From IMG/VR virus record IMGVR_UViG_3300048061_000004, positions 1 through 22,853 of that record: a DNA stretch of 22,853 nucleotides; one strand, given 5' to 3'. Shown piece after piece: positions 1-22,853 of the stretch. The DNA comes from a virus. The notes beneath the pieces are model-generated. The model did not search any database, was not told where the DNA came from, and was given only the letters and a program-made list of their open reading frames with translations. Position 1 is the first letter of the stretch. Every line of letters starts with the position of its first letter. Position numbers and translations under genes: made by a program.

Positions 1-966
1 AAAGACAAGTATGGTTGGGAAGCTAAAGAATTTACTAATGATGGTAAACCAAAACTAGATGATACTGTATTAAGTAAATTGGAATATCCTGAAGCAAAAA
101 TTTTATGCGAACATTTTTTATTAGATAAAAGAATTGCACAATTAGCTACAGGTACACAAGCATGGTTAAAACATGAGAAGAATAATAAAATACATGGCAC
201 TTGTAATACTAATTCTACGGTAACTGCTAGAGCGAGTCACTCGTTTCCAAACCTAGCACAAATTCCAAGTGTGTCTGTACCTTTTGGTAAAGAATGTAGA
301 AGTTTATTTACTGTACCTACTGGTAAAAAATTAGTTGGTATAGATATATCAGGATTAGAAGTTAGAATGTTAGCTCACTTTATGTCTAAGTATGACAATG
401 GAGATTATTCTAAAGTTGTATTAGAAGGTGATATACATACAGAGACACAGAATCTTGCAGGTTTAGACTCAAGAGATTTAGCAAAAAGATTTTACTATTG
501 CTTTTTATATGGTGGTGGTGTCAAACGAATAGCTGAAGTAACTGGTAAAAAAGTTGGTGAAGCATCTAAGATTAAAAAAAGATTCTTAAATAATTTACCT
601 GCTCTTAGTAAACTTATAGAGCAAGTACAATTAGCATCAGAGCGTGGTCACTTACTTGGTCTTGATAAAAGACAGATAAAAGTAAGGTCAGCCCATGCCG
701 CACTCAACACACTTTTACAGAGCTCAGGAGCTTTAGTGTGTAAACAGTGGTTAGTTGAGTTTAATAAATTAGTTAAGGATATTCCTGAAACTCAGCAGGT
801 TGTCTGGGTGCATGACGAAATACAAGTTGAGTGTCTTGAAAAAGATGCAGAGACTATTGGTAAGTTAGCCGTTGAAGCAATACAAAAAACAGGTGAACAC
901 TTCCAATTAAGATTACCATTAACAGGCGAATATAAAATAGGAGATGATTGGAGTGGAACACATTAA
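1..966 (+). CDS. T7-like family A DNA polymerase, 3' part (5' end outside window)
   Basis: Replicative DNA polymerase, C-terminal 321 residues; the frame is open from base 1, so the gene starts upstream. Palm and fingers motifs of family A are all visible: motif A GIDISGLEVRMLAH with catalytic Asp at residue 115 of the fragment; O-helix RDLAKRFYYCFLYGGG with Arg158, Lys162 and Tyr166; NTLLQSSGALVCK; and motif C VWVHDEIQVEC with Asp272. The Tyr at the O-helix position equivalent to T7 Tyr526 is kept. The exonuclease and thumb domains must lie outside the window. The stop codon overlaps the next start as TAATG, so the two genes are probably translationally coupled. Similarity to T7 gp5 is clear by motif; whether thioredoxin serves as a processivity factor cannot be judged from this fragment. 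Confidence 0.97.
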   Translation, partial: KDKYGWEAKEFTNDGKPKLDDTVLSKLEYPEAKILCEHFLLDKRIAQLATGTQAWLKHEKNNKIHGTCNTNSTVTARASHSFPNLAQIPSVSVPFGKECRSLFTVPTGKKLVGIDISGLEVRMLAHFMSKYDNGDYSKVVLEGDIHTETQNLAGLDSRDLAKRFYYCFLYGGGVKRIAEVTGKKVGEASKIKKRFLNNLPALSKLIEQVQLASERGHLLGLDKRQIKVRSAHAALNTLLQSSGALVCKQWLVEFNKLVKDIPETQQVVWVHDEIQVECLEKDAETIGKLAVEAIQKTGEHFQLRLPLTGEYKIGDDWSGTH

Positions 967-1364
967 TGAAAAATAATAAATTTGATATAGATTTAAAGTA
1001 CGGTCAAGATAGAGAAAACAGAATAGAAAAAATACTTAAAGAAGGTAAACTAGAAGTTAAGACTGAGAGAGACTGGTGGTTTAAGAGTGGTAACATTGCA
1101 ATAGAAATAGAATGTAATGGTAAACCTTCAGGAGTTATGGCAACTAAGTCTGACTACTGGGTTCATATATTAGCTGATGGAGACAATGATTATTGTAGAC
1201 TAATATTTGATACACGTACTGTTAAAAAACTTGCTAGAAAATATATTAGTAAAATTAAAAATGTTGGTGATGGGTTTAGAAGTAAATGTGTAATGATACC
1301 TTTAGCTGAAATATTCTTAGCAAAAAATTTAGATGCAAATAAAACAAAAGGAAATAGTAAATGA
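966..1364 (+). CDS. Possible PD-(D/E)XK-type nuclease, 132 aa
   Basis: Small protein between polymerase and exonuclease. The ATG at 966 is chosen over an in-frame TTG at 948 because it overlaps the polymerase stop as TAATG, a junction used repeatedly here. Residues 29-32 read LEVK, an ExK signature, preceded by a Glu-rich helix (Glu17, Glu21) and followed by the segment GNIAIEIECNGKPSG and then a D-Y-W. That order (helix acid, ExK, then GN-x3-IE) is typical of many PD-(D/E)XK nucleases, including phage Holliday-junction-type enzymes, and the replication context fits. I infer a nuclease fold only; no classical upstream catalytic Asp is certain, so it could be an inactive or unrelated protein. 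The 3' end overlaps the exonuclease start by 4 nt. Confidence 0.55.
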   Translation: MKNNKFDIDLKYGQDRENRIEKILKEGKLEVKTERDWWFKSGNIAIEIECNGKPSGVMATKSDYWVHILADGDNDYCRLIFDTRTVKKLARKYISKIKNVGDGFRSKCVMIPLAEIFLAKNLDANKTKGNSK

Positions 1365-2125
1365 GTGATAAATACAAAAAGAAAAGAGTGTTACTAATTG
1401 ATGGTGACATATTGTTATATAAGATTGCTCTTAACAATGAAATAGATACACACTGGGGTGATGGTCTATGGACATTACATTGTGATGAGAAAGTATGTAA
1501 AGCAGATGTAGATGCAGTAATAGATGACTTAGGTTCTAGTCTATCAGCAGATGATTATGTTGTTACATTAACAGATGCTAACAATTTTAGAAAAGATGTC
1601 TTACCTTCTTACAAAAGTAATAGAAGAGAGAAGCGTAAACCTATGGTGTTAAAAGCATTACGTGAATATGTAATGGAAAAACACAATGGTGTGTCTTGGA
1701 AAAACTTAGAAGCTGATGATGTCATGGGTATTATGGCAACTGAACCTTCTTTAAATGAAGAAAGAATTGTTGTCAGTATAGATAAAGATTTACGAACAGT
1801 ACCATGTAACTTATCTCAAGATGGACAAACAATAGAGCAGATACCTCAACGATTAGCTGACTATCAATTTATGATACAAACTTTAACAGGAGATAAAGTT
1901 GACGGATATGATGGCATAGATGGTGTCGGAGTTGTTACTGCTAATAAACTAATACAAAAATACACTAATGTTAAGTTAAAAGATTTGTGGAAGGTAGTTA
2001 AAGGTATCTACAAAGACAAAGGTTACTCAGCTAAAGAAGCATTAGCTCAAGCTAGAGTGGCACACATACTTAGACATGGTGAATACAATAAGAAAACAGG
2101 GAAGGTTAAGTTATGGACAATATAA
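1361..2125 (+). CDS. T7 gp6-like 5'-3' exonuclease (FEN/PIN-like fold)
   Basis: A 254-residue exonuclease expected to degrade duplex DNA from 5' ends, recycling host DNA and removing primers. The acidic metal-binding residues occur in family order: DGD at 14-16, the arch region NFRKDVLPSYKSNR at 75-88, LEADD at 116-120, SIDKDLRT at 139-146, and TGDKVDGYDGIDGVG at 176-190, which resembles the helix-hairpin DNA-binding segment. In T7, gene 6 also follows the polymerase gene. It overlaps the upstream gene by 4 nt and the downstream DUF3310 gene by 13 nt, which indicates one polycistronic unit. Confidence 0.93.
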   Translation: MSDKYKKKRVLLIDGDILLYKIALNNEIDTHWGDGLWTLHCDEKVCKADVDAVIDDLGSSLSADDYVVTLTDANNFRKDVLPSYKSNRREKRKPMVLKALREYVMEKHNGVSWKNLEADDVMGIMATEPSLNEERIVVSIDKDLRTVPCNLSQDGQTIEQIPQRLADYQFMIQTLTGDKVDGYDGIDGVGVVTANKLIQKYTNVKLKDLWKVVKGIYKDKGYSAKEALAQARVAHILRHGEYNKKTGKVKLWTI

Positions 2126-2334: not shown

Positions 2335-2340
2335 AGGTGT

Positions 2341-2736
2341 ATGCTTGAACACAAACACATTTTAATCAGAGCAACAGTCAAAAAACCACCTGTGCAAATA
2401 GATAGTATAAAAGCATGGATAAGAAATTTAGTAAATGATTTAGGTATGAAACCTTTAGGTGAGACTGTTGCTGTCTATGTAAATAAAAAAGATAACAGAG
2501 GTTTAACTTGCTTACAAGCTATTGAAACATCACACATAGCATTACATTCTTGGGACGAAGATAGTCCTGCTATAATTCAATTAGATGTCTACACTTGTAG
2601 TAAGTTAAATAAAGATGTTGTATTTAAAGCATTAGATAAATTTGACCCAATAGAAATTAATTACTTAACACTAGATAGAAAGAGATATTTAGATATAAAA
2701 AACAAAGATGAGATAAACAATGACAATAGATTATAA
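2341..2736 (+). CDS. speD: S-adenosylmethionine decarboxylase-like protein (SpeD family, divergent)
   Basis: A 131-residue protein of the prokaryotic AdoMet decarboxylase type, which normally self-cleaves to make a pyruvoyl group and produces decarboxylated SAM for spermidine synthesis. The core is ETSHIALHSWDE at residues 62-73 followed by QLDVYTC to Cys86; Ser64, His69 and Cys86 align with the known cleavage Ser, His and Cys of the bacterial enzymes. Length matches the short single-domain bacterial form. Odd points: the residue before the Ser is Thr rather than the usual Glu (the Glu sits one place earlier), the Pro of the HTWPE signature is Asp, and two extra residues lie between His69 and Cys86. 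Activity is therefore an inference. The gene starts 6 nt after the DUF3310 stop, with GAGG upstream, and overlaps nrdA by 17 nt. Confidence 0.8.
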   Translation: MLEHKHILIRATVKKPPVQIDSIKAWIRNLVNDLGMKPLGETVAVYVNKKDNRGLTCLQAIETSHIALHSWDEDSPAIIQLDVYTCSKLNKDVVFKALDKFDPIEINYLTLDRKRYLDIKNKDEINNDNRL

Positions 2737-4477
2737 TAGAGATGAATTACTTACTGATTTTGGTAAGACAACATTAAAAGATAGATACCTTTTACCACAA
2801 GAAGAATCACCGCAAGATGGATTTATGAGAGCGGCTAAAGCATTTTCTGACAATGATGAAATGGCAGACCGTATATATAACTATGCTTCTAAACTTTGGT
2901 TTATGTTTTCTACACCTATTTTATCTAACGGTGGTACAAAAAGAGGTATGCCTATCTCATGTTTTTTAAATTATGTTGGTGATAGTAGAGAAGGATTAAC
3001 AGGACACTACACAGAAAATGCTTGGTTAGCTTCTGTTGGTGGTGGTATCGGTGGCTACTGGGGTGATGTAAGAAGTGATGGTACTGCTACATCAGGTGGT
3101 AGTCAATCTTCAGGTTCAATACCTTTTCTTCACGTAGTAGACTCAGAAGTATTAGCTTTTTCACAAGGTAAAACAAGACGTGGTAGTTATGCCGCTTACA
3201 TGGATATATCACACCCAGAAATTATAGAATTTATGGAGATGCGTAAACCTAGTGGTGGTGATGTGCACAGAAAATGTTTAAACTTACATCATGGTGTAAA
3301 TTTATCTAATGAATTTATGCAATTAATAGACCATTGTGTTAAAGAACCTACGTATGATGACAGTTGGAATCTTATAGACCCACATACAAAAAAAGTAGTA
3401 CGTACTGTATCAGCTAGAGACTTGTGGCAAAAGATATTAGAGACAAGAGTTGCTACTGGTGAGCCTTATGTTTCATTTATAGATACTGTTAATGAATCAT
3501 TGCCTGAACCTCAAAAGAAATTAGGACTAAGAGTTAATCATTCTAATTTATGTACTGAAATAACTTTACCTACTAATGAAAATAGAACAGCAGTGTGTTG
3601 TTTGTCTTCTGTAAATTTAGAAAAGTATGACGAATGGAAAAATGATACATTGTTTGTGCCTGACTTAATTAGATTCTTAGATAATGTCTTACAACATTTT
3701 ATTGACAATGCACCTGACGAATTATTCAGAGCTAGATTTAGTGCGGCAAGTGAAAGAAGTTTAGGTTTAGGAGCTATGGGTTTTCATGCTTACTTACAAT
3801 CTAAAGGAATACCTTTTGAGTCTGCTTTAGCTAAGTCATTAAATTTAAAAATATTTAAAAAGATAAAAGAACAAGCTGTAGAAGAATCTAAAAGATTAGC
3901 AATTAAAAGAGGTGAAGCACCAGACATGGAAAATACTGGTATGCGTAATGCACATTTACTAGCTATTGCACCTAATGCTTCTTCATCTATTATTTGTGGT
4001 ACAACATCACCATCAATAGAACCATACAGAGCTAATGCTTATGTGCAAAAAACTATGTCAGGTTCTTTTTTAGTTAAGAATAAATACTTAGAAAAATTAT
4101 TAGAAAAAAAGGAGATAAATAATGATAAGACTTGGACTTCAATACTTGCGAATAGAGGCTCAGTGCTTCATATTAAAGAGCTATCTGATTATGAAAAAGA
4201 TACGTTTAAAACTGCGATTGAAATTAACCAACAATGGGTAATAGAACATGCCGCAGATAGACAACAATATATTTGTCAAGGACAATCAGTTAATGTGTTT
4301 GTCCCTGCTGATGTAAACATTAAAGAGTTACATGACATACACATGTTAGCTTGGAAGAAAAAATTAAAGACACTTTATTACTGTCGTTCAGAAGCAATTA
4401 AACGTGCAGAATTGGTATCTAAAAAAATAGAAAGAACAATCATACCAGAAGCAGATTGTTTAGCATGTGAGGGATAA
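2720..4477 (+). CDS. nrdA: Ribonucleotide reductase class I, catalytic (alpha) subunit
   Basis: Reduces ribonucleotides to deoxyribonucleotides in the cytoplasm with NrdB, supplying dNTPs for phage DNA synthesis. At 585 residues it is much shorter than the roughly 760-residue E. coli enzyme; the N-terminus starts close to the core barrel and no ATP-cone is seen, so the usual dATP feedback site is probably missing. Catalytic residues are present: Cys81 in MPISCF, Asn276-x-Cys278-x-Glu280 in SNLCTE, Cys293 in AVCCLSS, the radical-transfer tyrosines Tyr553-Tyr554 in LKTLYYC, and a C-terminal CLAC pair (Cys580, Cys583) for reactivation by a thioredoxin or glutaredoxin. It overlaps speD by 17 nt, and its stop overlaps the next small gene as TAATG. 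Confidence 0.96.
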   Translation: MTIDYNRDELLTDFGKTTLKDRYLLPQEESPQDGFMRAAKAFSDNDEMADRIYNYASKLWFMFSTPILSNGGTKRGMPISCFLNYVGDSREGLTGHYTENAWLASVGGGIGGYWGDVRSDGTATSGGSQSSGSIPFLHVVDSEVLAFSQGKTRRGSYAAYMDISHPEIIEFMEMRKPSGGDVHRKCLNLHHGVNLSNEFMQLIDHCVKEPTYDDSWNLIDPHTKKVVRTVSARDLWQKILETRVATGEPYVSFIDTVNESLPEPQKKLGLRVNHSNLCTEITLPTNENRTAVCCLSSVNLEKYDEWKNDTLFVPDLIRFLDNVLQHFIDNAPDELFRARFSAASERSLGLGAMGFHAYLQSKGIPFESALAKSLNLKIFKKIKEQAVEESKRLAIKRGEAPDMENTGMRNAHLLAIAPNASSSIICGTTSPSIEPYRANAYVQKTMSGSFLVKNKYLEKLLEKKEINNDKTWTSILANRGSVLHIKELSDYEKDTFKTAIEINQQWVIEHAADRQQYICQGQSVNVFVPADVNIKELHDIHMLAWKKKLKTLYYCRSEAIKRAELVSKKIERTIIPEADCLACEG

Positions 4478-4644: not shown

Positions 4645-4819
4645 AGATTATAAAATTAGAGATGGTGTGCATCTTCCTACTGACGCATATAGAAAAAATT
4701 ATGATTCTATTTTTAAAAAGAAGAAGTGTAAGACACATACTAAAGAAAAAGAAAACAACAATGAGTGTTGTCACTCAGAAGAACAAACATATTTAGAGGA
4801 GTTAAAAAACAAACTATGA
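4634..4819 (+). CDS. Small charged hypothetical protein between nrdA and nrdB, 61 aa
   Basis: Not recognised. The 61 residues are Lys/Glu-rich, starting MGFKDYKIRDGVHLPTDAY, followed by a lysine block (FKKKKCK) and a CCHSEEQ segment, ending ELKNKL. Its stop overlaps the nrdB start as ATGA, and its start lies 11 nt inside the upstream membrane-protein gene, so it sits in a chain of coupled genes. Many phages place a glutaredoxin near nrdAB; this protein is too short and has no CPYC-like thioredoxin motif, so it is not one. The two adjacent Cys plus His could bind a metal, but that is speculation. Confidence 0.6.
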   Translation: MGFKDYKIRDGVHLPTDAYRKNYDSIFKKKKCKTHTKEKENNNECCHSEEQTYLEELKNKL

Positions 4820-5766
4820 GTTTATTTAAAGAAAGAGTACATTACAAACCATTTGATTACGAATGGGCTTTTGAATCTTACGACATGCAACAAAAAATGC
4901 ACTGGCTACCTAGTGAAGTACCTTTACATGAAGATGTAAGAGACTGGAATGAAAGATTAAGTGCAGAAGAAAAAAATCTTATATCACAAATTCTTAAATT
5001 CTTTACTCAAGGTGACGTAGATATAGCTCAAGCATACTTAGATAAGTATATACCTAAGTTTAAATCACCTGAAGTTAGAATGATGTTGTCTTCTTTTGCT
5101 ACAAGTGAAGCTAATCACGCACATAGTTATTCATTACTTAATGATACAATCGGATTACCAGATAAAGAATACAAAGCATTTCAAGAATATAAAGAAATGG
5201 CTGATAAACATGAGTATTTATTTGCTAGTAAAGGCAAAGGACTAGAAGGATTAGCTAAAGAGATAGCTTGTTTTTCTGCATTTGGTGAAGGCTTACAGTT
5301 GTTTGCATCATTTGTTATGCTACTAAACTTTCAAAGATACGGAAGAATGAAGGGCATGTGTCAAATAGTTACATGGTCTATTAGAGATGAGACTCATCAC
5401 GTAGATGGTATGATTAAATTGTTTCATCAATTAATAAAAGAAAATCCTAATATTTGGACAGAAAAATTTAAAGCAAGTATTTATCAAACAGCTAGAGATA
5501 TGGTTGCATTAGAAGATAGATTCATTGATTTAGCATTTAGTATGGGCGGTATTAGAGGATTGAAAGCAGAAGAAGTTAAACAATATATTAGATATATTGC
5601 TGACAGAAGACTGTTACAACTATCATTAAAACCTAATTTTGGTGTTAAACAAAACCCTTTAGGTTGGTTAGATTGGGTGTTAAATGGTGTAGAACATGCT
5701 AATTTCTTTGAAAATAGAGCTACAGAATATAACAAAGGTACAGTAACAGGGAGCTTGTGGGAGTAA
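4816..5766 (+). CDS. nrdB: Ribonucleotide reductase class I, radical (beta) subunit
   Basis: Ferritin-like di-iron subunit that generates the tyrosyl radical used by NrdA. With the start at 4816 (MSLFKERVHY) the protein is 316 residues; an in-frame ATG at 4765 would add 17 unlikely residues inside the upstream gene, and the 4816 ATG forms an ATGA overlap with that gene's stop. Metal ligands fall at the same spacing as in the E. coli protein: Asp67, Glu98, His101, Glu158, Glu192 and His195, with the radical Tyr105 in SEANHAHSY. The set is complete, so an active Tyr-radical class I enzyme is expected. The stop codon runs directly into the repeated 26-nt motif at 5765. Confidence 0.96.
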   Translation: MSLFKERVHYKPFDYEWAFESYDMQQKMHWLPSEVPLHEDVRDWNERLSAEEKNLISQILKFFTQGDVDIAQAYLDKYIPKFKSPEVRMMLSSFATSEANHAHSYSLLNDTIGLPDKEYKAFQEYKEMADKHEYLFASKGKGLEGLAKEIACFSAFGEGLQLFASFVMLLNFQRYGRMKGMCQIVTWSIRDETHHVDGMIKLFHQLIKENPNIWTEKFKASIYQTARDMVALEDRFIDLAFSMGGIRGLKAEEVKQYIRYIADRRLLQLSLKPNFGVKQNPLGWLDWVLNGVEHANFFENRATEYNKGTVTGSLWE

Positions 5767-6187: not shown

Positions 6188-7753
6188 ATGGAATACATGG
6201 ATAACAATTTTACAAAAGATACAGCAAAACAGCGTTATTCAAAATTAAAACAAGACAGAGAACATTTCTTAGATAGAGCAGAAGAATGTTCTGAAGTCAC
6301 TATTCCCTCTCTAATACAACCAGATGGTTTTACAGCATCTTCTGATTTGTATAACCCTTTCCAATCTGTAGGAGCTAGGGGTGTAAACAATTTAGCTTCT
6401 AAACTTTTATTACTATTACTTCCACCAAACTCTCCCTTCTTTAGATTATCAATAGCAGGAAAAGCTAAACAAGAATTAGATGAAAACAAAGAAATAAAAT
6501 CTGATGTAGAAAAATCTTTAGCTGTTATAGAAAAAGAAGTATCAAATAAAATTGAACAACTTGCTTTAAGAGTATCTGTATTTGAAGCATTAAAACATTT
6601 GATAGTGTCTGGTAATGTACTAACTTATTTACCTAAAAAAGGAAGCATGAGAGTATTTCCTTTACATCAATATGTTTGTCAAAGAGATAGTTCAGGTAAT
6701 GTTTGTGAAATAATTATACAAGAAAAATTAAGTATATTAGCTTTAGGTAAAGAAATAGCGGCACAAGTTATAGCTGACCCTGAATATAAAAAAGATGAAG
6801 AGATAGAATTATATACTCACATATATAAATTAGACGATAAGAAATTTTATGTTTGTCAAGAAGTTAATGGTATTAAAATGCCTGAATCTGTTGGAACATT
6901 TAATAAAGAACGTATGCCTTACCAAGCTCTAAGAATGGTTAGAGTTGATAATGAAGACTATGGTAGAGGATATGTAGAAGAATTTTTAGGAGATTTAAAA
7001 TCATTAGAAGGATTGTCTCAAGCATTAGTAGAATCTGCGGCGGCTTCAAGTAAAGTAGTATTTATGGTAAGACCAAATGCAGTGACTAGAAAAAAAGATT
7101 TATCATTAAGTAGAAATGGTGACATTATTACAGGAAGCAGAGATGATGTGTCTGTACTACAAGCAGAAAAACAATATGATTTACAAGTTGTAGAAAGAAG
7201 TATACAAAAATTAGAAGAAAGATTATCATTTGCTTTCTTATTACATACAGCAATACAAAGAAATGCTGAACGTGTGACTGCTCAAGAAATTAGATACATG
7301 GCTGAACAATTAGAAACAGCAATGGGTGGTATATATTCTTTATTATCACAAGAATTTCAATTACCATTAGTAACTATTCTTATGAAAAGAATGGAACAAG
7401 CAAATGAAATACCATCATTACCTGAAAAATCAGTAAGACCTACAATTATTACTGGTATTGAAGCATTAGGTAGAGGAAATGATTTACAAAAATTAAGAGA
7501 ATTTGTAGCTGAGATAGGTAACTTAGCTCAAATAAATCCTGCTGTTGTGCAGTCATTAAACCCAGACGATTTAATTAAGCGTATTGCTACTGGTTTAGGA
7601 ATTGAAACTGAAGGTTTAATAAAGTCACAAGAACAAATGGCACAAGAACAGGAAGCTCAAGAAGAGCAAATGCAAAATGAGCAAATGATGCAAATGGCTG
7701 AGAAAGCTGTAGCACCTGTTGCTAATAATGCAACTAAACCACAACCACAATAG
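6188..7753 (+). CDS. Head-tail connector (portal) protein, T7 gp8-like
   Basis: Dodecameric portal through which DNA is packaged and ejected. The 521-residue length is close to T7 gp8 (about 536). Family-like segments include the N-terminal KQRYSKLKQDREHFLDRAEE, the LLLLPPNSPFFRL segment near residue 80, a central VDNEDYGRGYVEEFLGDL, a SQALVESAAASSKVVFMV helix, and NAERVTAQEIRYMAEQLE near residue 360. The C-terminus is a Gln/Glu/Met-rich low-complexity tail. Start is uncertain by three codons: a second in-frame ATG at 6197 has the sequence TGGAAT upstream. The gene lies immediately before the scaffold gene, as in T7. Confidence 0.93.
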   Translation: MEYMDNNFTKDTAKQRYSKLKQDREHFLDRAEECSEVTIPSLIQPDGFTASSDLYNPFQSVGARGVNNLASKLLLLLLPPNSPFFRLSIAGKAKQELDENKEIKSDVEKSLAVIEKEVSNKIEQLALRVSVFEALKHLIVSGNVLTYLPKKGSMRVFPLHQYVCQRDSSGNVCEIIIQEKLSILALGKEIAAQVIADPEYKKDEEIELYTHIYKLDDKKFYVCQEVNGIKMPESVGTFNKERMPYQALRMVRVDNEDYGRGYVEEFLGDLKSLEGLSQALVESAAASSKVVFMVRPNAVTRKKDLSLSRNGDIITGSRDDVSVLQAEKQYDLQVVERSIQKLEERLSFAFLLHTAIQRNAERVTAQEIRYMAEQLETAMGGIYSLLSQEFQLPLVTILMKRMEQANEIPSLPEKSVRPTIITGIEALGRGNDLQKLREFVAEIGNLAQINPAVVQSLNPDDLIKRIATGLGIETEGLIKSQEQMAQEQEAQEEQMQNEQMMQMAEKAVAPVANNATKPQPQ

Positions 7754-8770: not shown

Positions 8771-8772
8771 AT

Positions 8773-8898: not shown

Positions 8899-8899
8899 T

Positions 8900-14052: not shown

Positions 14053-14569
14053 TGTAGTTACAGCATTAAAAATAGGAACAGCGATATATTCTCATCAAAG
14101 TCAAAAAGCAGTTGCTAAAGGTAAAAGAAATGCAAACAATGAAACAAGAAAAAATGCTGATGCAAATTATTTAGCCAACATTGCTAAAATTGATAATGAA
14201 AAAAATGAAGCTGACATGGAAAAATCTAAAGAGTTATTTAAAAATTCTCAAGAAAAGAAAGCTGAACAAGCGTCAGGATTAAATTTAGGATTTGGTAATG
14301 CTACTAGAATATTACAAAGCATAAGTGGTAAATTTGATTCTTCTTACGCTGATATACTTGCAGGTTACAGACAAGACATGACAGCATTGCGAGGTGATGA
14401 AACTTCAGCGTATGCTAATCTTTCTAAAACTTATAACAGTATTAAACCTGTAACAGAACCTAGTAGAACAGGTCTTGCATTACAAATTGCAACAATAGGT
14501 GCTGAAGGTTATTACAAAAATCAAGCAAAAGAAGAACCTTTAAAAACATCAACCTACAATGAAGATTAA
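14045..14569 (+). CDS. Internal virion protein, T7 gp14-like
   Basis: Core/ejected protein of 174 residues (T7 gp14 has 196) that in T7 inserts in the outer membrane at infection. It begins MCDVVTALKIGTAIYSHQSQ, the short hydrophobic MC-D-x2-TA start typical of these proteins, followed by a long Lys/Asn/Glu-rich helical region (residues 20-75), and GNATRILQSISGKFDSSYADI, and a C-terminal GLALQIATIGAEGYYK. Its start lies within the end of gp13 (8-nt overlap). The order gp13-14-15-16 is as in T7. Confidence 0.87.
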   Translation: MCDVVTALKIGTAIYSHQSQKAVAKGKRNANNETRKNADANYLANIAKIDNEKNEADMEKSKELFKNSQEKKAEQASGLNLGFGNATRILQSISGKFDSSYADILAGYRQDMTALRGDETSAYANLSKTYNSIKPVTEPSRTGLALQIATIGAEGYYKNQAKEEPLKTSTYNED

Positions 14570-14574
14570 TTATA

Positions 14575-16713
14575 ATGGCTTATACAAAACAAAGACAAAA
14601 TAAATATTTTGATGCGTTTAATAAAGGATATGTGTCTTCCTCTAACGTATCAGACGCTACTCAACTTATAGATACTTTACAAAAAAGCACAATTCCAACT
14701 TTACAAAATATTCAAGATTACAAAATAGATAAATCAAAAGATGAAGCCGCTAGTAAAGTCAATACTTTGTATGCACAAGGTAAAGATAGCAAAACTATTT
14801 TAGAAGAAATTAATGCAGGTCAACACCCTGAATTAGCAGGTAAATATGTAGATAAAACAGTTCAATATCATTTAGGAAGAGTAGAAGCATCTAAACAAAA
14901 ATTAAAAATTCAAGAAGATATGCTTACTAATTATGATTTTAAAACAAGTAATTTAGATGTCTTTTTAAAACCATACATGGAATCTATGAATTTTGATGGA
15001 AAAGATGATTCATTTACATTAGGATTTGCTTCTTCTTTTACACCTTTTAAATCTAAATTAATGTCTGCTGATGCAGAAACAAGAGCTAAATTTAATTATG
15101 AAACTAAAATATTAGATTTGATTGCTATTACAAATGATATTCCTACAGATGAAATAGGAACAACATATTTTCAAACTTTAAAAAGTACACAATACGAATT
15201 ACCTAACAGTGAAGGTGGTAAATTTATTATGCACAGTAATGATGATATTAATAAAGCCGCTATGACTGATGTAGAAAATATTGTTAAAGGTGCAAAGACA
15301 AGCAAAGAATTACTTAGAGCATTTGAAATTTTAAATGCAGATAGAGGACTTGATGCTAAAGGTAATAAATTACAAAAATTCTTATTAAGTAACAAACCTG
15401 AAGTTAAAGCATTAATAGAAACTTATGAAAATAAAGCTAGAGCTTTAGAAAATCAAGAATACACAATTAATCAAAGAAAAATAGAAACTGATAAAAAAGA
15501 TAGATTATCTACTTTGTTTAGTATGGATAACAGTTCAGAAGAATTTAATAATTTTAAATCAGAATTTATTAAAGATTATCCTACTATGGCAATTACTATT
15601 AACAGTATTATGACTGCTAGTGATAACATGTTAGAAGATAAAGGTGCATTAGCAAGTATAGATAGAGATATACATTTAGGAGTTTATAATAATAATGTAG
15701 ATTTATTACTTACAGATTTAGCTAAAAACAACGCATCAAAAACAACTATATTATCTTCTTTTAAATCTTTAGCTAGTGCTGAATTAAGAGCTAACTCAGG
15801 GTTTACAAGTCCATTGCAAGACAATGAATATACAGGAACAGTAAACAAAATAGCTAAAATATTATCTGATAGTATTCCTACTCTATCTAAATTTGATGAT
15901 AATAGGAAATTTGATTTTATGGTAGACACTATTGAAAATGAATTATCAACAGATTGGTTAGCATGGAATAGAGAAAATCCTAAACCAAATTCTTCTCAAC
16001 CTGCTGAGGTGCAAATGCAATGGGTAGAAGATTCTAAAAAATATTTAACTGACCAGTATGAATCTATAATTAAAAAATATGACAACAAAACTTGGGGTGA
16101 AACTATGGCGGCTAGGATAGAACAATCAGGTTTAACCACGTCTGCTGATTTAGATAGTTATGCTCAAGAATACTATACTGATGTCATTAGTAAAGAAGTT
16201 ACAAGTTTATCAAAAGAAACAGAATTGTTATCTGAATTAGTTAAAGAATCTGAAACAGATTTAATTCCAGTTTCACAAAAAATATTAGAATCACCATTCT
16301 TTTCTAATTTAATGGCAACAGCAGGATTTGGTTTATTTGGTGATGACCCTAACACTCCTAACATTGATGAAAGAATGAATGTAGTTATGGATATAATGGA
16401 AGGTCTTGGATTACAGAATGTAGATTTTTCAGAACAAGCAAATGCTGTAATAGATAATATTAATAATTTTACTACTAATGTAGATTTACCAGAAATTACA
16501 AAAAACTTTAAATTCTTTACAGACCAAGACAGTGTAGAAGCACAGACAAATGCTTTTATAGAGGGCATTAATACAATGGCAGGACAACCTATAACTAAAG
16601 GTTTTTATGATTTCTACATTGCAAATAATGATGAAGTTAAAACTAACATGGCACAATCATTTGGAATTTCTACGGAACAACTAGATGAATTTGTCAATAA
16701 ATATATAAAGTAA
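14575..16713 (+). CDS. Internal virion protein, T7 gp15-like
   Basis: A 712-residue, largely helical protein in the position of T7 gp15 (747 aa), which forms part of the internal core and the periplasmic channel for DNA ejection. It begins MAYTKQRQNKYFDAFNKGYV. There are no strong membrane segments or catalytic motifs, and the sequence is dominated by Asp/Glu/Lys/Asn helices, for example KVNTLYAQGKDSKTILEEIN near residue 62. Identification relies on order, size and composition more than on a signature motif. It starts 5 nt after gp14 and ends 7 nt before gp16. Confidence 0.85.
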   Translation: MAYTKQRQNKYFDAFNKGYVSSSNVSDATQLIDTLQKSTIPTLQNIQDYKIDKSKDEAASKVNTLYAQGKDSKTILEEINAGQHPELAGKYVDKTVQYHLGRVEASKQKLKIQEDMLTNYDFKTSNLDVFLKPYMESMNFDGKDDSFTLGFASSFTPFKSKLMSADAETRAKFNYETKILDLIAITNDIPTDEIGTTYFQTLKSTQYELPNSEGGKFIMHSNDDINKAAMTDVENIVKGAKTSKELLRAFEILNADRGLDAKGNKLQKFLLSNKPEVKALIETYENKARALENQEYTINQRKIETDKKDRLSTLFSMDNSSEEFNNFKSEFIKDYPTMAITINSIMTASDNMLEDKGALASIDRDIHLGVYNNNVDLLLTDLAKNNASKTTILSSFKSLASAELRANSGFTSPLQDNEYTGTVNKIAKILSDSIPTLSKFDDNRKFDFMVDTIENELSTDWLAWNRENPKPNSSQPAEVQMQWVEDSKKYLTDQYESIIKKYDNKTWGETMAARIEQSGLTTSADLDSYAQEYYTDVISKEVTSLSKETELLSELVKESETDLIPVSQKILESPFFSNLMATAGFGLFGDDPNTPNIDERMNVVMDIMEGLGLQNVDFSEQANAVIDNINNFTTNVDLPEITKNFKFFTDQDSVEAQTNAFIEGINTMAGQPITKGFYDFYIANNDEVKTNMAQSFGISTEQLDEFVNKYIK

Positions 16714-16720: not shown

Positions 16721-19700
16721 ATGGGCGTATTTGATTCTTACCAATCTAGTACCTTATCATCTAACGATAATGATAAGTACAAACACTTACACAAGAACAG
16801 AAGAAAAAAAATAGAAAAAAATCAATACGATAATATGAAACGTGTTGAAAAACAAGCGTTAGCTCTTGAAAAATTACAATCTGACAAATTTGAAACTGTA
16901 CTTAGACGATACTATTCAGGTGGTATAACTGATAAAAACAACACTATTACAGGTGGTAAGAATATAAAAGATTTTACTAAACAAGAATTAATAGAAAAGT
17001 TTTATCAAGATAGAATATGGAGTGAATATAACACAGCAGGTATTGCTTATGATGTAGGAAATGTTTTAGCAAAAGATGATACTTACAAAGGTGACTGGGC
17101 TGAAATAACTCAAGTATACGCAGACTTACCTTGGTTTGGAAGTGAAACTATTGGTTTTGCAAAATGGGCTAAAGATTTTGTACCTGCCTTAGTGTCTGAC
17201 CCTCTTAACTTATTTACTTTTGGTACAGGTAGTACCATTGTTAGAGAAGCGGCTAAAGTTCCATTAAAAGGATTAGCAAAAAAAGAATTTCAAAAACAAG
17301 CGGCTAAAGCGGCGGCTATAGATGTTGCTAAAAAAGAAGCAATCTATGGTGCGGCTATAGGAGCATCTGCTGACATGGCAAGACAAACTGCTGAAATAGA
17401 TTCTAATTTAATGTCTGATTACAATTTAACAAGAACATTATTAGCAGGTACTATTGGTGGTGTAGCTCAAGGTACTATAGGTGGTACTATGGGTTATTGG
17501 ACTTCTAAAGGTAAAGCAGGAAAATTTTATGATAAAGGTAATGGATTTAAAGGTGATTTAGATAAAGATGCAGGATTTGGTGGTAAGAGCACAGAAACTA
17601 CTTGGTCAGGTAAAGATGGTAAAGTTACTAAAAAGAAACCAGACATTAAAGTTAAAGAACCTAAAATAACTAAAGTAAGAAAAAGTGAAGTAGAAGTTAT
17701 TGAAAAAAAAGTTAAAGAAGTAAAAAGAAAAACACCTATTATTAATTTAAACAAAATTAGTTCTAAAGAAGACCACAATATTGTTATAAAAGAAATTAAT
17801 GCTACTATTAAAAGATTAAAAGAAAAAGGTTCTATACGAACAAATGAAAGAGTTGGTCTTTTACAAAACATAAAAGAAAAATCTTTAAAATTACTAGACC
17901 CTAAAAATGCAAAAAAATTAGCAGAAGAATTAGGTTTAGTAGTTAGAGTTGCTCCTGACTTAGCATCTAGTATATTAGCAGGTAGATACAACTTAGTTAA
18001 TAAAGCAAAAGAAATTTCTGAAATTAGAAAGATAGGTGAAGAAGCAGTAGACCCTAAAGAAAAATTTGCAATAGCTCAAAAATTATTTGAAGCATTGAAA
18101 GAAAAACAATTATTATTACAAAATCACATCAAATCAGTAGAAGGCGTATCTGACGCTTTAAATTCCCAAAAACTTATAGTAGAAGTAACAGATGCAGATA
18201 AATTACGTATGGACGCAGACATTGCTATTACAAAAGAAATGCCTAACTTGTTGTCACGTATTGAAAAAATGACACCAGAAGACCAAGTTAAAGCTATTAA
18301 TCAATTTGCAGAATTATCTAGTAATGATGAATTATTAAGAAAATTTGTTAGAAAATATAACAGAACAAAAAAAGATACAAGAGTTACATTATCAGAAGCA
18401 TTGAATGAATATGTAACTGGTAACTTATTGTTTGACCCTACAACACACGAAATAAACGTATTGTCTACTATTGCTAGATTTCAAGCTAATATTGTAGAAA
18501 ATTATTATAGTGGTCTTTTAAGTTTTGCTAGAGGTGAAGGTAAATTAGGATTAAATAAAATTAGAATGGCTAATGACTTAATGGTTGGTCAAACTAGATT
18601 CTTTCAAATAGCATTTAAAAAAGCACAACTTGCATGGAAAGCTAATAGAGCAATCGGTGATACATTAGAACATAGATTTGATGGTAGACAACAAAGAAAC
18701 ATGGAAACTTATTTTACACAATTAAGAGAATCTAACAATGTATTAAAAAGAGCATTAGCGTTTGTAGGTTCACCTATTGGTAAATTATCTTTTCTATCAC
18801 TTAGAGGTTTACAAGCAGGTGACTCATTCACAAAAAACATATTTAATAGAGCACAACGAGTAGCTAATGTTAATCAAAGAATGAGAACATTTTATCCTGA
18901 ATTATGGAAAAGCAAAAAAATTAACAAAACACAAACGATAAAATTAGAAGAAAAAATTAGAAGTTTAAAAGAAAACATAAGATTTGAAAAAGCACAAGAC
19001 AAGATAAACACAAAAAAAGTAGCTACATTAGATAAAAACTTAATGAATCTTGAAGGACAAAAAGTGCAACAAACACCTTTTGAAAAAAAATGGTCTGAGT
19101 TATATTTTCAATATGAAGATGAATTTGGTAATTTTAGACAAACAAAAACATTTAATAAAATTGAAACACAATCATTAGATGATTTAACAAAATCTGTAGC
19201 TAATGACCCTACATATATAGCAAGGATTAGTTCATTTACACAAAATCTAAAGAATGAAGCATTAGACCCTAATCAATTTTATCCAAATCAAAAACAAAGT
19301 TCTAATAACTTTGGTGACTTGTTATTAAAATTAACAAACAAATATCCATTAATAAGAGTATTAACAGGTTTACACTTTGTTAAAACACCTGTTAGTTTAT
19401 TTAAGTATGGTTGGCAGATGACACCATTACTTAATAAATTAAACATGGAATACTCTGCTATGCGTAAAGCATCTGACCCTGTTGTTAGACAAAAAGCAGA
19501 AGCTCTAAGTTATTTAGGTATGACAGTTTATGGTATGGCAACTATGTATGCTATGAATGATAAAATTACAGGATATAAAACTAAAGATAGAAAACACAGA
19601 TTTTCATACAAATATCAAGATGAAAATGGTGTTGACCAATATGTGTCTATGTCTAGGTTCTTTCCATTGTCAATTCCTTTTATGGTAACTGCGGCAATAA

Positions 19701-20758
19701 AAGATTCAGTAGAAGATTTAGGTAATCTATGGGACGACCCTGCACACAGCATAGAACAAAATAAAATGACAGAGTTCTTTACACACTTGGCTAGTTCATC
19801 ATTTTCATTGTGGTCTAACATATTTGCAAGTAATTTAATGACACAAGATTTCTTTGAGATGATGGCAATATTTAGTGATACAGAAGCAACTAATGAAGAA
19901 GGTGCGGCTAATGTTTCTAAAATAGATAGATATTTAAGTAGAAGTGCTAGTAAATTATTTCCTGCCGCTACAGGTTGGAGATGGTCTAACAAAGTGTTTG
20001 CAGATTCAGAAAAAGAATTAATAACTATGGTTGACCATTTATCACAATCATCACCGTATGCTTTAGCAAAAATTGTAAATGAAGAATATCTTGATGGACA
20101 ATTTCCATTATTAAATTATGGTGATGCTTTATCACCTAGAAGAGATGCCTTAGGTAATACATATCCTAAACCACAAGGTTTATTACTTGGTAACTGGCAA
20201 GATATATTTCCAGTAACAAGTCATTGGAGTGCTAATATTACTGATAGAAATGGTAAAAATATACTTACAGATAGAGCAAAAGAAATATTACAAACTTCAA
20301 ACATTTTATGGGAAAGACCTAGATTTAAAGTAGATGTAGGAACAAAATTAGATATTAATTTAAAACAATATAATGTTGTCAAAATGAAATCTAACAAAGT
20401 TTTAGCAAATGCAATAGAATTAAGAGAAGGTACAACTTTATATGAGGCTATGAACCAAGTAAAATCTCAAGTGTTATTAGGTGGTAGAACCTTAAATGAA
20501 CGTATTATATATGAATTAGATAATCCAAAATCAGCATATAATACTAAAGGATATTTAAGAGACAACAGAATTTATGCAGGTAAATATCAAGGTGATAAAT
20601 ATTTGTTAGAAATAATAAGAGAATATGAAAGAGCATCAAGAGAATACATAATGCAATATGCGTTCTTTGAAGCTGATAATGGCAAAGTTTCTACAATTAA
20701 TGGGTACAAAGAGACTTATGGAAAGCAACAATCTCAAGTTTTAACACAATTACAATAA
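16721..20758 (+). CDS. Internal virion protein, T7 gp16-like, without an evident transglycosylase domain
   Basis: A 1345-residue protein with the size and place of T7 gp16 (1318 aa), the largest ejected core protein. The N-terminus is charged (MGVFDSYQSSTLSSNDNDKY, then a Lys/Arg-rich helix), followed by an amphipathic region around DFVPALVSDPLNLFTFG near residue 150 and a Gly-rich hydrophobic stretch LLAGTIGGVAQGTIGG from residue 240 that could enter the membrane. Long Lys/Glu helices follow (residues 300-450). T7 gp16 has an N-terminal lytic transglycosylase with a catalytic Glu in an ES-x-G type motif; I see no such motif here. The stop codon overlaps copy 3 of the 26-nt motif. Confidence 0.9.
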   Translation: MGVFDSYQSSTLSSNDNDKYKHLHKNRRKKIEKNQYDNMKRVEKQALALEKLQSDKFETVLRRYYSGGITDKNNTITGGKNIKDFTKQELIEKFYQDRIWSEYNTAGIAYDVGNVLAKDDTYKGDWAEITQVYADLPWFGSETIGFAKWAKDFVPALVSDPLNLFTFGTGSTIVREAAKVPLKGLAKKEFQKQAAKAAAIDVAKKEAIYGAAIGASADMARQTAEIDSNLMSDYNLTRTLLAGTIGGVAQGTIGGTMGYWTSKGKAGKFYDKGNGFKGDLDKDAGFGGKSTETTWSGKDGKVTKKKPDIKVKEPKITKVRKSEVEVIEKKVKEVKRKTPIINLNKISSKEDHNIVIKEINATIKRLKEKGSIRTNERVGLLQNIKEKSLKLLDPKNAKKLAEELGLVVRVAPDLASSILAGRYNLVNKAKEISEIRKIGEEAVDPKEKFAIAQKLFEALKEKQLLLQNHIKSVEGVSDALNSQKLIVEVTDADKLRMDADIAITKEMPNLLSRIEKMTPEDQVKAINQFAELSSNDELLRKFVRKYNRTKKDTRVTLSEALNEYVTGNLLFDPTTHEINVLSTIARFQANIVENYYSGLLSFARGEGKLGLNKIRMANDLMVGQTRFFQIAFKKAQLAWKANRAIGDTLEHRFDGRQQRNMETYFTQLRESNNVLKRALAFVGSPIGKLSFLSLRGLQAGDSFTKNIFNRAQRVANVNQRMRTFYPELWKSKKINKTQTIKLEEKIRSLKENIRFEKAQDKINTKKVATLDKNLMNLEGQKVQQTPFEKKWSELYFQYEDEFGNFRQTKTFNKIETQSLDDLTKSVANDPTYIARISSFTQNLKNEALDPNQFYPNQKQSSNNFGDLLLKLTNKYPLIRVLTGLHFVKTPVSLFKYGWQMTPLLNKLNMEYSAMRKASDPVVRQKAEALSYLGMTVYGMATMYAMNDKITGYKTKDRKHRFSYKYQDENGVDQYVSMSRFFPLSIPFMVTAAIKDSVEDLGNLWDDPAHSIEQNKMTEFFTHLASSSFSLWSNIFASNLMTQDFFEMMAIFSDTEATNEEGAANVSKIDRYLSRSASKLFPAATGWRWSNKVFADSEKELITMVDHLSQSSPYALAKIVNEEYLDGQFPLLNYGDALSPRRDALGNTYPKPQGLLLGNWQDIFPVTSHWSANITDRNGKNILTDRAKEILQTSNILWERPRFKVDVGTKLDINLKQYNVVKMKSNKVLANAIELREGTTLYEAMNQVKSQVLLGGRTLNERIIYELDNPKSAYNTKGYLRDNRIYAGKYQGDKYLLEIIREYERASREYIMQYAFFEADNGKVSTINGYKETYGKQQSQVLTQLQ

Positions 20759-20782: not shown

Positions 20783-20799
20783 TTAAATTAAGGAATTAA

Positions 20800-22853
20800 A
20801 TGGCAAACAGTTTTGTAAGATACACTGGTAACGGTAGTACAACAGCGTATTCTATACCTTTTAGTTATAGAAGTACAGCAGACTTGGCAATTACCCTAGC
20901 AGGTGTAGCTTCAACAGCTTTTACATTAAATGCCGCAGGAACAACACTTACATTTAACACTGCTCCTGCAAATGCAGTAGCCATTGAGATTAGACGTAGA
21001 ACCTCACAAGGTACTAAATTAGTAGATTATGCTTCTGGTTCTGTACTTACAGAGAATGATTTAGATACAGATTCAGACCAAGCGTTCTTTATGGGTCAAG
21101 AAGCCATTGATGATGCTAATGATGTTATTAAAGTATCAAGTACAGATTTTCAATGGGACGCACAAAACAAAAGACTTACAAATGTGGCAGACCCTACGGC
21201 GGCACAACATGCGGCAACTAAGAATTATTTAGAAAACACGTGGTTATCAGCGTCAGATAAGACTACTCTTAACAATGTTAATAGCAATATATCAGCGATT
21301 AATACTGTTAATAGTAACATGTCAGCTATTACTACAACCAATTCTAACGCTACAAACATTAATACAGTAGCAACTAACATTGCTTCAGTAAACACAGTAG
21401 CAACAGATATTACAAAGGTTATAGCAGTAGCTAATGATTTAGCAGAAGCAGTTTCAGAAGTAGAGACTGTAGCTGATGATTTAAACGAAGCAACATCTGA
21501 GATAGATACAGTTGCTACAAACATAGCTAATGTTAATACAGTAGGTACTGGCATTGCTAACGTAAATACAGTAGCAGGTATATCAGCTAACGTAACTACA
21601 GTTGCAGGTATTCACGCAAATGTTACTTCAGTAGCAGGTATAAGTTCAGCAGTATCAGCAGTAAACAGTAATGCGACTAATATTAATGCTGTAAATTCTA
21701 ACAGTTCAAATATTAATACAGTTGCAGGTTTGTCTTCAGCAATATCAACTGTAAATTCTAATTCTAGCAACATCAATACTGTTGCAGGAAACAATACAAA
21801 CATTAACACAGTAGCAGGAGCAAATTCTAATATTACAGCAGTAGCAGGTGGTATTACAAATATTAATACTGTAGCTACAAACTTAGCGGCAGTAAATAAT
21901 TTTGCTGACGTATACAGAATTTCAAGTTCAGCACCTACAAGTTCACTAACTTTAGGAGATTTATATTTTGATACAAGTGCAAACGAATTAAAAGTATACA
22001 AATCGTCAGGTTGGGCGGCGGCAGGTTCTACAGTTAACGGAACAAGCAACAGGTTTGAATATACTGCAACAGCAAACCAAACAACATTTACAGGTTCAGA
22101 TTCAAATTCAAAAACTTTGGCGTATGACGCAGGGTTTATAGATGTATATTTAAACGGAGTTAAACTTGCAAATGCAGATTTTACTGCAACTTCAGGTACT
22201 AGCGTTGTATTAGGTACAGGTGCTTCAGCAAACGATATTTTAATGATTGTGGCTTATGGAACATTCCAATTAGCTAACATATCAATTAATGATTTAACAA
22301 ATACACCTGCAAGTATTGGCACAGCAGGACAGGCTTTAGTTGTAAATTCAGCAGGAAATGCTTTAGAATACGCAAATGCTTCTTCAGCAGAAGTTTATGG
22401 TTTTAATAAATATTACAATCCATCTACTTTAGTAAAAACAGTTACAGTTTCTTCAGTTGGTGGTTCTAACAAATATTTTATAGATGGTGTTCAACAAGAT
22501 ACTTTAGATTTATACGAAGGAAATACTTATGTATTTAATTATCCTTCAGCACACCCATTTAAGTTTTCAACAACATCAAATGGAACACACGCAAGTGGTT
22601 CAGAATACACAACAGGTGTAACTCACAATAGTTCAACACAAGTAACAATCGTTGTAGCTAGTGGAGCTCCAACACTTTATTATTATTGTAGTTCACATTC
22701 AGCAATGGGTGGAACAGCAAATACACCAACACCTGCAAATAATGCAGTTCAATATATTACGACCAATCAAGGTCAAGATAACATCACCGAAAGTCAATAT
22801 GCCAACTTTGATGATGTTCTATTTAGTGCTTCAGGCTTTGTCTTTAGCATTAA
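20800..22853 (+). CDS. Tail fibre protein, T7 gp17-like N-terminus, truncated by the window end
   Basis: Receptor-binding fibre; 684 residues are visible and the frame is still open at the last base. Residues 1-150 (MANSFVRYTGNGSTTAYSIP, then IRRRTSQGTKLVDYASGSVLTE, ENDLDTDSDQAFFMGQEA and a FQWDAQNKRLTNVADP segment) match the T7 fibre N-terminal domain that attaches to the tail. Residues 158-365 are twenty decapeptide units. Residues 385-405 contain a GDLYFDTSANELKVYKSSGW collar-like motif common in phage fibres. Residues 419-490 (TTFTGSD, DVYLNGVKLANADFTATSG) form a beta domain similar in outline to the N-terminal one. Residues 547-640 look like a cupredoxin. AAGGA at 20790 sets the start. 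Adhesion tip and stop lie outside the window. Confidence 0.92.
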   Translation, partial: MANSFVRYTGNGSTTAYSIPFSYRSTADLAITLAGVASTAFTLNAAGTTLTFNTAPANAVAIEIRRRTSQGTKLVDYASGSVLTENDLDTDSDQAFFMGQEAIDDANDVIKVSSTDFQWDAQNKRLTNVADPTAAQHAATKNYLENTWLSASDKTTLNNVNSNISAINTVNSNMSAITTTNSNATNINTVATNIASVNTVATDITKVIAVANDLAEAVSEVETVADDLNEATSEIDTVATNIANVNTVGTGIANVNTVAGISANVTTVAGIHANVTSVAGISSAVSAVNSNATNINAVNSNSSNINTVAGLSSAISTVNSNSSNINTVAGNNTNINTVAGANSNITAVAGGITNINTVATNLAAVNNFADVYRISSSAPTSSLTLGDLYFDTSANELKVYKSSGWAAAGSTVNGTSNRFEYTATANQTTFTGSDSNSKTLAYDAGFIDVYLNGVKLANADFTATSGTSVVLGTGASANDILMIVAYGTFQLANISINDLTNTPASIGTAGQALVVNSAGNALEYANASSAEVYGFNKYYNPSTLVKTVTVSSVGGSNKYFIDGVQQDTLDLYEGNTYVFNYPSAHPFKFSTTSNGTHASGSEYTTGVTHNSSTQVTIVVASGAPTLYYYCSSHSAMGGTANTPTPANNAVQYITTNQGQDNITESQYANFDDVLFSASGFVFSI
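21271..21894 (+). repeat. Twenty-unit decapeptide (30-nt) repeat in the tail fibre shaft
   Basis: In-frame units of ten residues with consensus NTVAG-x3-N-I/V, for example NTVNSNMSAI, NTVATDITKV, NTVGTGIANV, NTVAGISANV, TTVAGIHANV, NAVNSNSSNI, NTVAGNNTNI and NTVATNLAAV. Two four-residue inserts (VSEV at 21451-21462, TSEI at 21493-21504) interrupt the phase around the more acidic units 6-8. Hydrophobic residues recur at unit positions 3 and 10. DNA identity between units is moderate, so this is an old, diverged array rather than a recent expansion. Confidence 0.85.
22438..22719 (+). other. Cupredoxin-like (plastocyanin-like) domain within the tail fibre
   Basis: Fibre residues about 547-640. 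A beta-rich segment with YEGNTYVFNYPSAHPFKFS (His585), then EYTTGVTHNSSTQVTIVV, then APTLYYYCSSHSAMGG with Cys630, His633 and Met636. His followed about 45 residues later by Cys-x2-His-x2-Met at the end of a Tyr-rich strand is the arrangement of type 1 copper proteins, though plastocyanin itself has four residues between His and Met. The fold call is moderate; copper binding is inference. Confidence 0.6.

Follow-up and report, generated by a model that had tools for sequence, protein, structure and literature searches.

The virus record IMGVR_UViG_3300048061_000004, whose 22,853 bases were analysed in full and are hereafter called the window, belongs to Pelagivirus, the HTVC019P-type podophages of SAR11 bacteria, and contains not a single GCWGC (GCAGC or GCTGC). 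We observed that GCWGC and many other words recognised by type II restriction enzymes have been removed from both strands and from all frames, beyond what protein sequence and codon usage impose; the removal is synonymous where that is possible, as in Ala-Ala pairs written GCS GCN, and proceeds by amino-acid replacement otherwise. In all likelihood, the missing GCWGC is one part of an avoidance of many type II restriction sites in the natural host population. Moreover, we consider it rather probable that restriction in SAR11 populations is so broad and effective that phage proteomes are edited, with wholly trapped dipeptides driven out and their residues replaced; absent words and dipeptides would then form a barcode of a hidden type II repertoire, and the rule may extend to other phages under broad restriction.

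Across the whole window, GCAGC and GCTGC occur 0 times each, GCGGC 29 times and GCCGC 10 times (39 GCSGC, where the earlier note had about 40), against a dinucleotide expectation of 22 GCWGC and 3 GCSGC. The earlier note had proposed a codon-shuffle comparison, and by that measure too the word is far from its expected level: when protein and codon usage were kept (17 chosen coding sequences of the window, 21,120 nt, 1000 shuffles), GCWGC was found 0 times versus 31.1 +/- 1.9 expected, with none of the 1000 shuffles that low, and GCSGC 35 times versus 4.5, every one of them in codon frame 0. Indeed, the first codon of Ala-Ala was GCG or GCC in 35/35 pairs (28 GCG, 7 GCC). The 38 junctions claimed previously thus agree in spelling and differ in number, and the remainder probably lies in short genes outside the chosen set (e.g., 8770-9408). 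Before other codons, Ala was mostly GCA or GCT (509/544, the other 35 being GCG or GCC), as had been stated. Before GGN it was GCA in 37/37 cases, a feature that the note had missed and that arises because GCTGG is also avoided. Since GCAGC and GCTGC are mutual reverse complements, these counts cannot separate a palindromic target GCWGC (TseI-like) from an asymmetric GCAGC.

The same pattern was found in 91 loci of the clade, comprising the window, the best 80 of 266 IMG/VR relatives and 10 reference genomes (1.14 Mb of coding sequence); a second set of IMG/VR relatives comprised the best 80 of 205. Counts exclude coding sequences with non-ACGT letters and open reading frames (ORFs) below 80 aa, except in the gene-sharing comparison; ORF sets are mechanical, so that a few may be spurious, and the loci are related, so that pooled counts are not independent. 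GCWGC occurred 23 times versus 1,796 expected, GATC 0 versus 2,548 (0 in all three frames), and GGATG (6 versus 807) and GCTGG (35 versus 1,129) were low in every frame. A codon-pair or translational preference at Ala-Ala would place the visible change in Ala-Ala codons, where it is indeed located; however, off-frame GCWGC is also nearly gone (1 versus 43 expected), which indicates that the DNA word is acted on and not Ala-Ala codon pairing, and same-strain relatives freely use GCW GCN (HTVC120P 38/43, HTVC119P 53/58), so that we find this preference scarcely credible as the cause. Selection on the DNA word through synonymous choice, as put forward in the earlier note, is upheld by the off-frame loss.

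A further record matches the window almost perfectly, with 100% identity both in tail tube B and across the initial 600 bases, and 17.3 kb of it lie beyond the window. This outer part has 0 GCWGC (4.6 expected in its coding sequence), is also without GATC, GGATG, GCTGG, TCGA, CATCG, GCGC, GGCC and CCGG, has CCNGG once, and keeps GANTC (23 versus 24.4 expected), as the window does. It is therefore an independent prediction borne out for both the avoided and the kept words. The part overlapping the window carries single GGATG, CCWGG and AAGCTT sites that are absent from the window.

Regarding the breadth of avoidance, the window is also without GATC, GGATG, GCTGG, TCGA, CGATG, GCGC, GGCC, CCGG, GGNCC, CCNGG, CCTCC, CCCG, CTGCAG, AAGCTT, CAATTG and CATATG, HindIII and MfeI sites being among the missing words. 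In its coding sequences, the codon-shuffle null gives 46.8 GATC, 21.1 GCTGG, 15.1 TCGA, 13.6 GGATG, 8.1 GCGGA, 7.7 GCGC, 3.6 GGCC and 3.2 CCGG, all observed 0 times; CATCG, AAGCTT, CAATTG, CTGCAG, ATGCAT and CAGCTG are likewise 0 in the window with 8 to 12 expected each. Among words of 5 or 6 bases, with enzyme words taken from the Biopython list (REBASE) and words containing a shorter avoided site skipped, 6/102 testable REBASE words were avoided in the window versus 1/1037 other words, and 18/167 versus 15/1377 in HTVC105P. Known type II sites are thus over-represented among the missing words. Type II avoidance implies a word far below its null, a coincidence with known specificities and a loss over all frames and both strands, and all three are seen here.

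Eliminated specificities were counted in 25 sequences (leaving aside HTVC022P, HTVC304P, S35-C6, HTVC201P and the IMG/VR loci). There were 9 in the window, which is half a genome, and among Pelagivirus references 14 in HTVC131P, 15 in Jormungand, 21 in HTVC019P, 25 in HTVC021P, and 26 each in HTVC105P and HTVC109P. Eistla, HTVC031P, HTVC142P and HTVC168P had 6 to 8, S42-C7, HTVC134P, HTVC120P and Bylgja 3 to 8, HTVC025P 11, HTVC011P 18 and HTVC119P 1; other phages reached 21 (P-SCSP1n), 20 (Puniceispirillum phage HMO-2011), 16 (HTVC010P), 13 (CRP-114), 12 (T7), 11 (phiKMV) and 12 in 50 kb (HTVC008M). GCWGC is consequently not the singular signal for which it had been taken, as it is one of the 9 specificities purged in the window and the six full Pelagivirus references purge 14-26. 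In this same test T7 behaved as the known avoider that it is, for GATC (6/124) and CCWGG (2/53), and the six references exceed T7 and phiKMV in breadth. A greater breadth in Pelagivirus than in all other phages is ruled out by P-SCSP1n and HMO-2011, whose counts, with those of the other phages, indicate that broad avoidance is not peculiar to this group.

Mutational loss, through GCWGC methylation raising C-to-T change or through AT-rich host mutation or codon bias, would suit an AT-rich genome (32% GC), and we judge it highly improbable. Deamination of GCWGC would yield GTAGC and GCAAC, neither of which is over-represented (1.08 and 1.07), and among single-base neighbours of GCAGC the 7.0-fold excess falls on GCSGC, counter to AT bias, with GCAGG at 1.9-fold and CCAGC, itself avoided, at 0.04; in addition, the residues that replace Gly-Pro and Pro-Gly are varied. 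Phages of other lineages on the same SAR11 strains retain GCWGC: HTVC119P, HTVC120P and HTVC134P were recorded from HTCC7211, as was the avoider HTVC105P, and none of the three avoids the word, a difference that argues against a shared mutational bias. In sum, methylation decay, codon-pair preference and shared host mutation bias were rejected on the grounds of the substitution spectrum, the off-frame loss and the same-strain phages.

The avoided-word repertoire switches between close relatives and does not follow the isolation strain. On a quick tree of one protein (60 tail tube B rows, from loci of at least 9 kb with at least 44% identity to the window), the minimum number of switches between avoidance and retention was 5 for GCWGC (57 rows), 3 for GANTC (57), 5 for TCGA (39) and 1 for GATC (60), rows of intermediate ratio being unscored (3 for GCWGC, 3 for GANTC, 21 for TCGA). 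HTVC031P has 1 GCWGC and HTVC142P 45, with tail tube B 94% identical; of the Ala-Ala sites common to both, 15 have a codon with W in HTVC142P but with S in HTVC031P and 0 the reverse, whereas at other Ala codons the two directions number 25 and 29. HTVC031P and Eistla were both recorded from HTCC1062, and HTVC168P and HTVC142P both from HTCC7211; in each pair, only one member avoids GCWGC. The word therefore tracks lineage history, not one fixed host enzyme; the link to type II restriction drawn in the earlier note is supported.

The GCWGC-tolerant Eistla and HTVC142P use GCS in 0.26 and 0.25 of Ala-Ala pairs, versus 0.10 and 0.08 at other Ala, possibly a remnant of earlier GCWGC avoidance; this is suggestive only, because the excess is also seen in S42-C7 (0.21 versus 0.09), HTVC134P (0.18 versus 0.11) and HMO-2011 (0.41 versus 0.17). 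HTVC019P avoids GCWGC (13 versus 45) and GCTGG (16 versus 33) partly, most of its near relatives having few or none. A combined motif SCAGC (GCWGC plus CCAGC) was rejected, as Eistla, HTVC142P, HTVC134P, HTVC120P, Bylgja and S42-C7 avoid GCTGG and not GCWGC.

A more general avoidance of palindromic or structured words with a non-restriction cause (recombination, a resolvase or a mismatch-repair nuclease of phage or host) must also be weighed. For coliphages, the lack of GATC has been explained by mismatch repair, and GATC is 0 in 19/20 autographivirus pelagiphages, the exception being HTVC119P with 100 sites; furthermore, many avoided 6-mers are palindromic, in several lineages simultaneously (6-mer comparison over 20 of 23 whole sequences). 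Nevertheless, asymmetric words are purged equally, as seen above for GGATG and GCTGG, and in some genomes for CATCG, CTTGAG and CTCTTC, and several of them have known enzymes: GGATG (FokI), CATCG (CdiI) and CTTGAG (BpuEI). Palindromes such as CTAG (53 observed/50 expected), GTAC (55/63) and CATG (50/39) are kept in the window, GCWGC is lost whereas GCSGC, no less a palindrome, is over-represented, and word sets switch among close relatives. We therefore consider a palindrome-directed cause unlikely.

Slightly less probable still is a nuclease encoded by the phage or a mobile element, degrading host DNA or excluding competitors, from whose target the phage keeps its own genome free. A pelagiphage methylase has been read as protection from host endonucleases or superinfecting competitors (PMC10504331, in the text available), most small phage genes have no assigned function, and C5-cytosine DNA methylase genes (PF00145) are found in S42-C7 (36523-37956) and HTVC134P (1745-3184). 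Against it, the annotation tables of 21 autographivirus pelagiphage records list nothing under the name of a restriction enzyme; they often include endonuclease I, and HTVC025P has one HNH endonuclease, too few for 14-26 specificities. Among ORFs of at least 40 aa, Eistla and HTVC142P share no gene that is absent from both HTVC031P and HTVC168P, so that none was found to account for their GCWGC tolerance. The C5 methylases were also rejected as the explanation of GCWGC tolerance, given that HTVC120P and Bylgja tolerate GCWGC and have no methylase annotated.

Restriction-site avoidance in the natural host population thus remains our preferred explanation, and it extends to the proteins. Every spelling of Gly-Pro contains GGNCC, and every spelling of Pro-Gly CCNGG. 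Neither dipeptide occurs in the window (0 each), while residue shuffling gives 23.1 together and never fewer than 11 in 2000 draws. Dipeptides were then counted in clusters built from 303 loci (tail tube B complete in 261, dereplication at 97%, clusters with at least 25 kb of sequence retained). In the 56 dereplicated Pelagivirus loci, observed over expected values were 1/592 for Gly-Pro and 19/592 for Pro-Gly, with off-frame GGNCC at 0/102 and CCNGG at 5/98; the controls were Ala-Pro 740/729, Pro-Ala 610/729, Pro-Pro 290/284 and Gly-Gly 1312/1349, and Ala-Ala, which keeps a free spelling, was 1541/2142.

In a blind prediction over the 44 of these 56 representatives with at least 78% identity to the window, avoided sites were called first, under a protein-keeping null. 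The dipeptides left without any site-free spelling, Trp-Pro (0/70 expected), Trp-Met (1/62), Pro-Gly (5/430) and Gly-Pro (1/430), were the four lowest of 397. The forced pairs are Gly-Pro with GGNCC, Pro-Gly with CCNGG, Trp-Pro with GGCC, Trp-Met with GGATG and Ala-Ala with GCNGC. Enzymes of the GCNGC type are represented by Fnu4HI, and HTVC011P and HTVC025P avoid GCWGC and GCSGC alike, which leaves Ala-Ala without a free spelling, so that it is lost: the HTVC011P clade has Ala-Ala 2/241 expected, with 4 GCWGC and 0 GCSGC in 145 kb of coding sequence, 2 Ala-Ala remaining in HTVC011P (54 expected) and 2 in HTVC025P (61 expected). This related word, in phages of the same host genus, also affects Ala-Ala; unlike in the window, GCSGC is avoided too. 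Part of the effect in HTVC011P is due to CCGC avoidance (CCGC/GCGG 0 versus 20).

Aligned sites were compared in nine chosen pairs for Gly-Pro and Pro-Gly and in ten for Ala-Ala. None of the 43 Ala-Ala of HTVC119P was kept in HTVC011P, with Ala-Ser and Ser-Ala most often in their place, and none of its 24 Gly-Pro or Pro-Gly was kept in HTVC105P, versus 76/229 of other x-Pro and 76/224 of other Pro-x. In the HTVC119P clade itself, where words are hardly avoided, dipeptide levels are normal (Gly-Pro 41/55, Pro-Gly 56/55, Ala-Ala 163/189). The effect is specific in another cluster, where Pro-Gly is 2/24 with off-frame CCNGG 0/47, and Gly-Pro 18/24 with GGNCC 78/50.

Several results weigh against this reading of the proteomes. 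T7 has Gly-Pro 10/29 despite off-frame GGNCC of 56/52, and the cluster of HTVC134P, HTVC120P and Bylgja has Pro-Gly 31/66 with off-frame CCNGG 30/13 and Gly-Pro 16/66 with off-frame GGNCC 77/16; perhaps the low Gly-Pro there is due to avoidance of GGWCC (0-3 sites versus 18-19). From these values, a moderate Gly-Pro shortage has other causes as well, whereas near-total loss is explained by sites. In the 44 loci, Arg-Cys (3/52) and Trp-His (5/38) are also very low, and our attempt to assign them to an avoided word found none that accounts for either. Over the 397 dipeptides, the trapped fraction did not correlate with depletion (Spearman -0.04), partly trapped pairs being only mildly low. Finally, the blind prediction gave no forced dipeptide for the HTVC011P clade or HTVC109P, probably since the expected counts of GGNCC and CCNGG in these sequences hardly reached the cut-off or fell short of it.

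Two further phages deserve mention. In the Prochlorococcus phage P-SCSP1n, a mirror of the window, Ala-Ala uses GCA or GCT in 97/97 pairs and GCSGC is 2 versus 18 expected. The Roseobacter phage CRP-114 has GANTC 10 versus 159 and CCWGG 1 versus 89 expected, together with Pro-Gly 8/60 and Gly-Pro 144/60 expected.

As for the selecting agents, these would be type II enzymes that occur here and there, at low frequency, among SAR11 hosts in nature. If each cell carried few systems while the population as a whole had many, the genome reports and the phages would both be accounted for, and a phage that meets many host genotypes would gain from having no site for any enzyme, with a very large phage population making even weak selection per site effective. 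GCWGC may reflect a TseI-like (GCWGC) or BbvI-like (GCAGC) enzyme among the host set. TseI and ApeKI (GCWGC) and BbvI (GCAGC) are type II enzymes whose recognition word is the one missing from the window. The repertoire of absent words would then record the restriction systems met by a phage lineage. Putative anti-phage systems, all of them restriction-modification (R-M), have been reported in 19/172 genomes of Ca. P. ubique (PMC11066056, in the part available), and a restriction endonuclease is mentioned in HTCC1062 (PMC10504331, likewise in part).

This explanation also has evidence against it. A scan of bacterial genomes that was not SAR11-centred gave one locus, in a Verrucomicrobia-titled metagenome-assembled genome (MAG), and no cognate GCWGC enzyme from SAR11. 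In the accessible text of PMC11066056, 0/14 bloom MAGs carried such systems and the authors judge a defence system an unlikely cause of the ribosome-poor cells studied; that of PMC9516812 gives eight Pelagibacterales MAGs without R-M. Temperate phages show less complete site elimination (Rusinov et al., 2018; PMC6286503, as far as its available text goes), and many Pelagivirus records carry an integrase. Moreover, GCTGG/CCAGC, CCTCC and ACGG match no enzyme in the Biopython list, and the avoided 5- and 6-mers of HTVC105P comprise 15 unlisted versus 18 listed. GCTGG/CCAGC and CCTCC, as well as GCGGA (absent in the window), are possible unlisted specificities.

Avoidance of restriction sites is a known phage strategy, and in the portion of that survey available GCWGC, in its Type IIM set, falls short of its expected number in 66.3% of genomes (Rusinov et al., 2018; PMC6286503). 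Pelagivirus resembles the phages described there in that the elimination of type II words is almost complete; the terms "amino acid", "dipeptide" and "Pelagibacter" are absent from the main text of that article. GANTC is depleted in about half of 33 pelagiphages, for which past defence or strains with R-M were suggested (Seong et al., 2022; PMC9516812, in part). That study concerns the same phage group, and there too depletion of a methyltransferase target partitions the phylogeny; its available text treats the single word GANTC and does not discuss GCWGC or protein effects, and the window clade keeps GANTC (50 sites versus 45 expected in the window, which places it outside the GANTC-depleted subgroup). 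As to the novelty put forward in the earlier note, depletion of another word in pelagiphages was thus already in print. Among the titles and abstract beginnings of the open-access literature, which leaves most subscription papers and all bioRxiv preprints outside, we recognised no description of multi-word avoidance in pelagiphages or of dipeptide loss by site avoidance. The element for which no parallel was recognised in that literature is the change of the proteome via loss of forced dipeptides.

The assignment to Pelagivirus follows from tail tube B identity, the nrdA/nrdB module and a gene order equal to that of HTVC019P (DNA polymerase, exonuclease, nrdA, nrdB, portal, scaffold, capsid, tail tubes, internal virion proteins, fibre; Table 1). 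The gene like S-adenosylmethionine decarboxylase, between the exonuclease and nrdA, is annotated in HTVC021P and not in HTVC019P. In addition, NHDJ01000024.1, an 8.9 kb Pelagivirus contig with 91% identity over part of tail tube B, is placed in the MAG Verrucomicrobia bacterium TMED56, probably by a binning error.

Table 1. Features of the window, with positions, strand and basis of assignment.
Feature	Position	Strand	Basis
No GCWGC (both strands, every frame, intergenic DNA included)	1..22853		Word counts
DNA polymerase family A, C-terminal part	79..966	+	PF00476
5'-3' exonuclease (gp6-like)	1361..2125	+	PF02739; synteny with HTVC019P
S-adenosylmethionine decarboxylase-like	2341..2736	+	PF02675
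Ribonucleotide reductase alpha (nrdA)	2720..4477	+	PF02867
Ribonucleotide reductase beta (nrdB)	4813..5766	+	PF00268
Head-tail connector (portal)	6188..7753	+	phrog_449
Overlapping GCGGC at 7037 and 7040 in portal, Ala codons GCG GCG; example of synonymous escape	7037..7044	+	Frame from gene start 6188
Scaffolding protein	7765..8529	+	phrog_1052
Major capsid protein	9408..10385	+	phrog_267
Overlapping GCGGC at 9597 and 9600 in capsid, consecutive Ala codons	9597..9604	+	Frame from gene start 9408
Tail tubular protein A	10458..11066	+	phrog_446
Tail tubular protein B	11066..13561	+	PHROG match; 83% identity to Pelagibacter phage HTVC019P (831 aa); basis for tree and relatives
Two internal virion proteins	13561..14569	+	phrog_308, phrog_805
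Internal virion protein region (gp15 position)	14575..16713	+	HTVC019P synteny, position only; no PHROG match
Internal virion protein D (gp16 position)	16721..20758	+	HTVC019P synteny; no PHROG or Pfam match
Tail fibre, runs off window	20797..22852	+	Open frame; HTVC019P synteny

SAR11 bacteria are often described as poor in phage defence. Despite this reputation of the host, many SAR11 podophages bear a strong imprint of restriction pressure, which names specificities to be sought in the genomes and methylomes of SAR11; phages might also be told apart by it according to the hosts of their past. Furthermore, when short DNA words are the target of a defence, a virus can lose amino-acid choices, a testable link from restriction to protein evolution. 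If restriction is indeed so broad and effective, absent words and dipeptides would reveal enzymes in the most abundant bacteria of the ocean, where few such systems have been reported.

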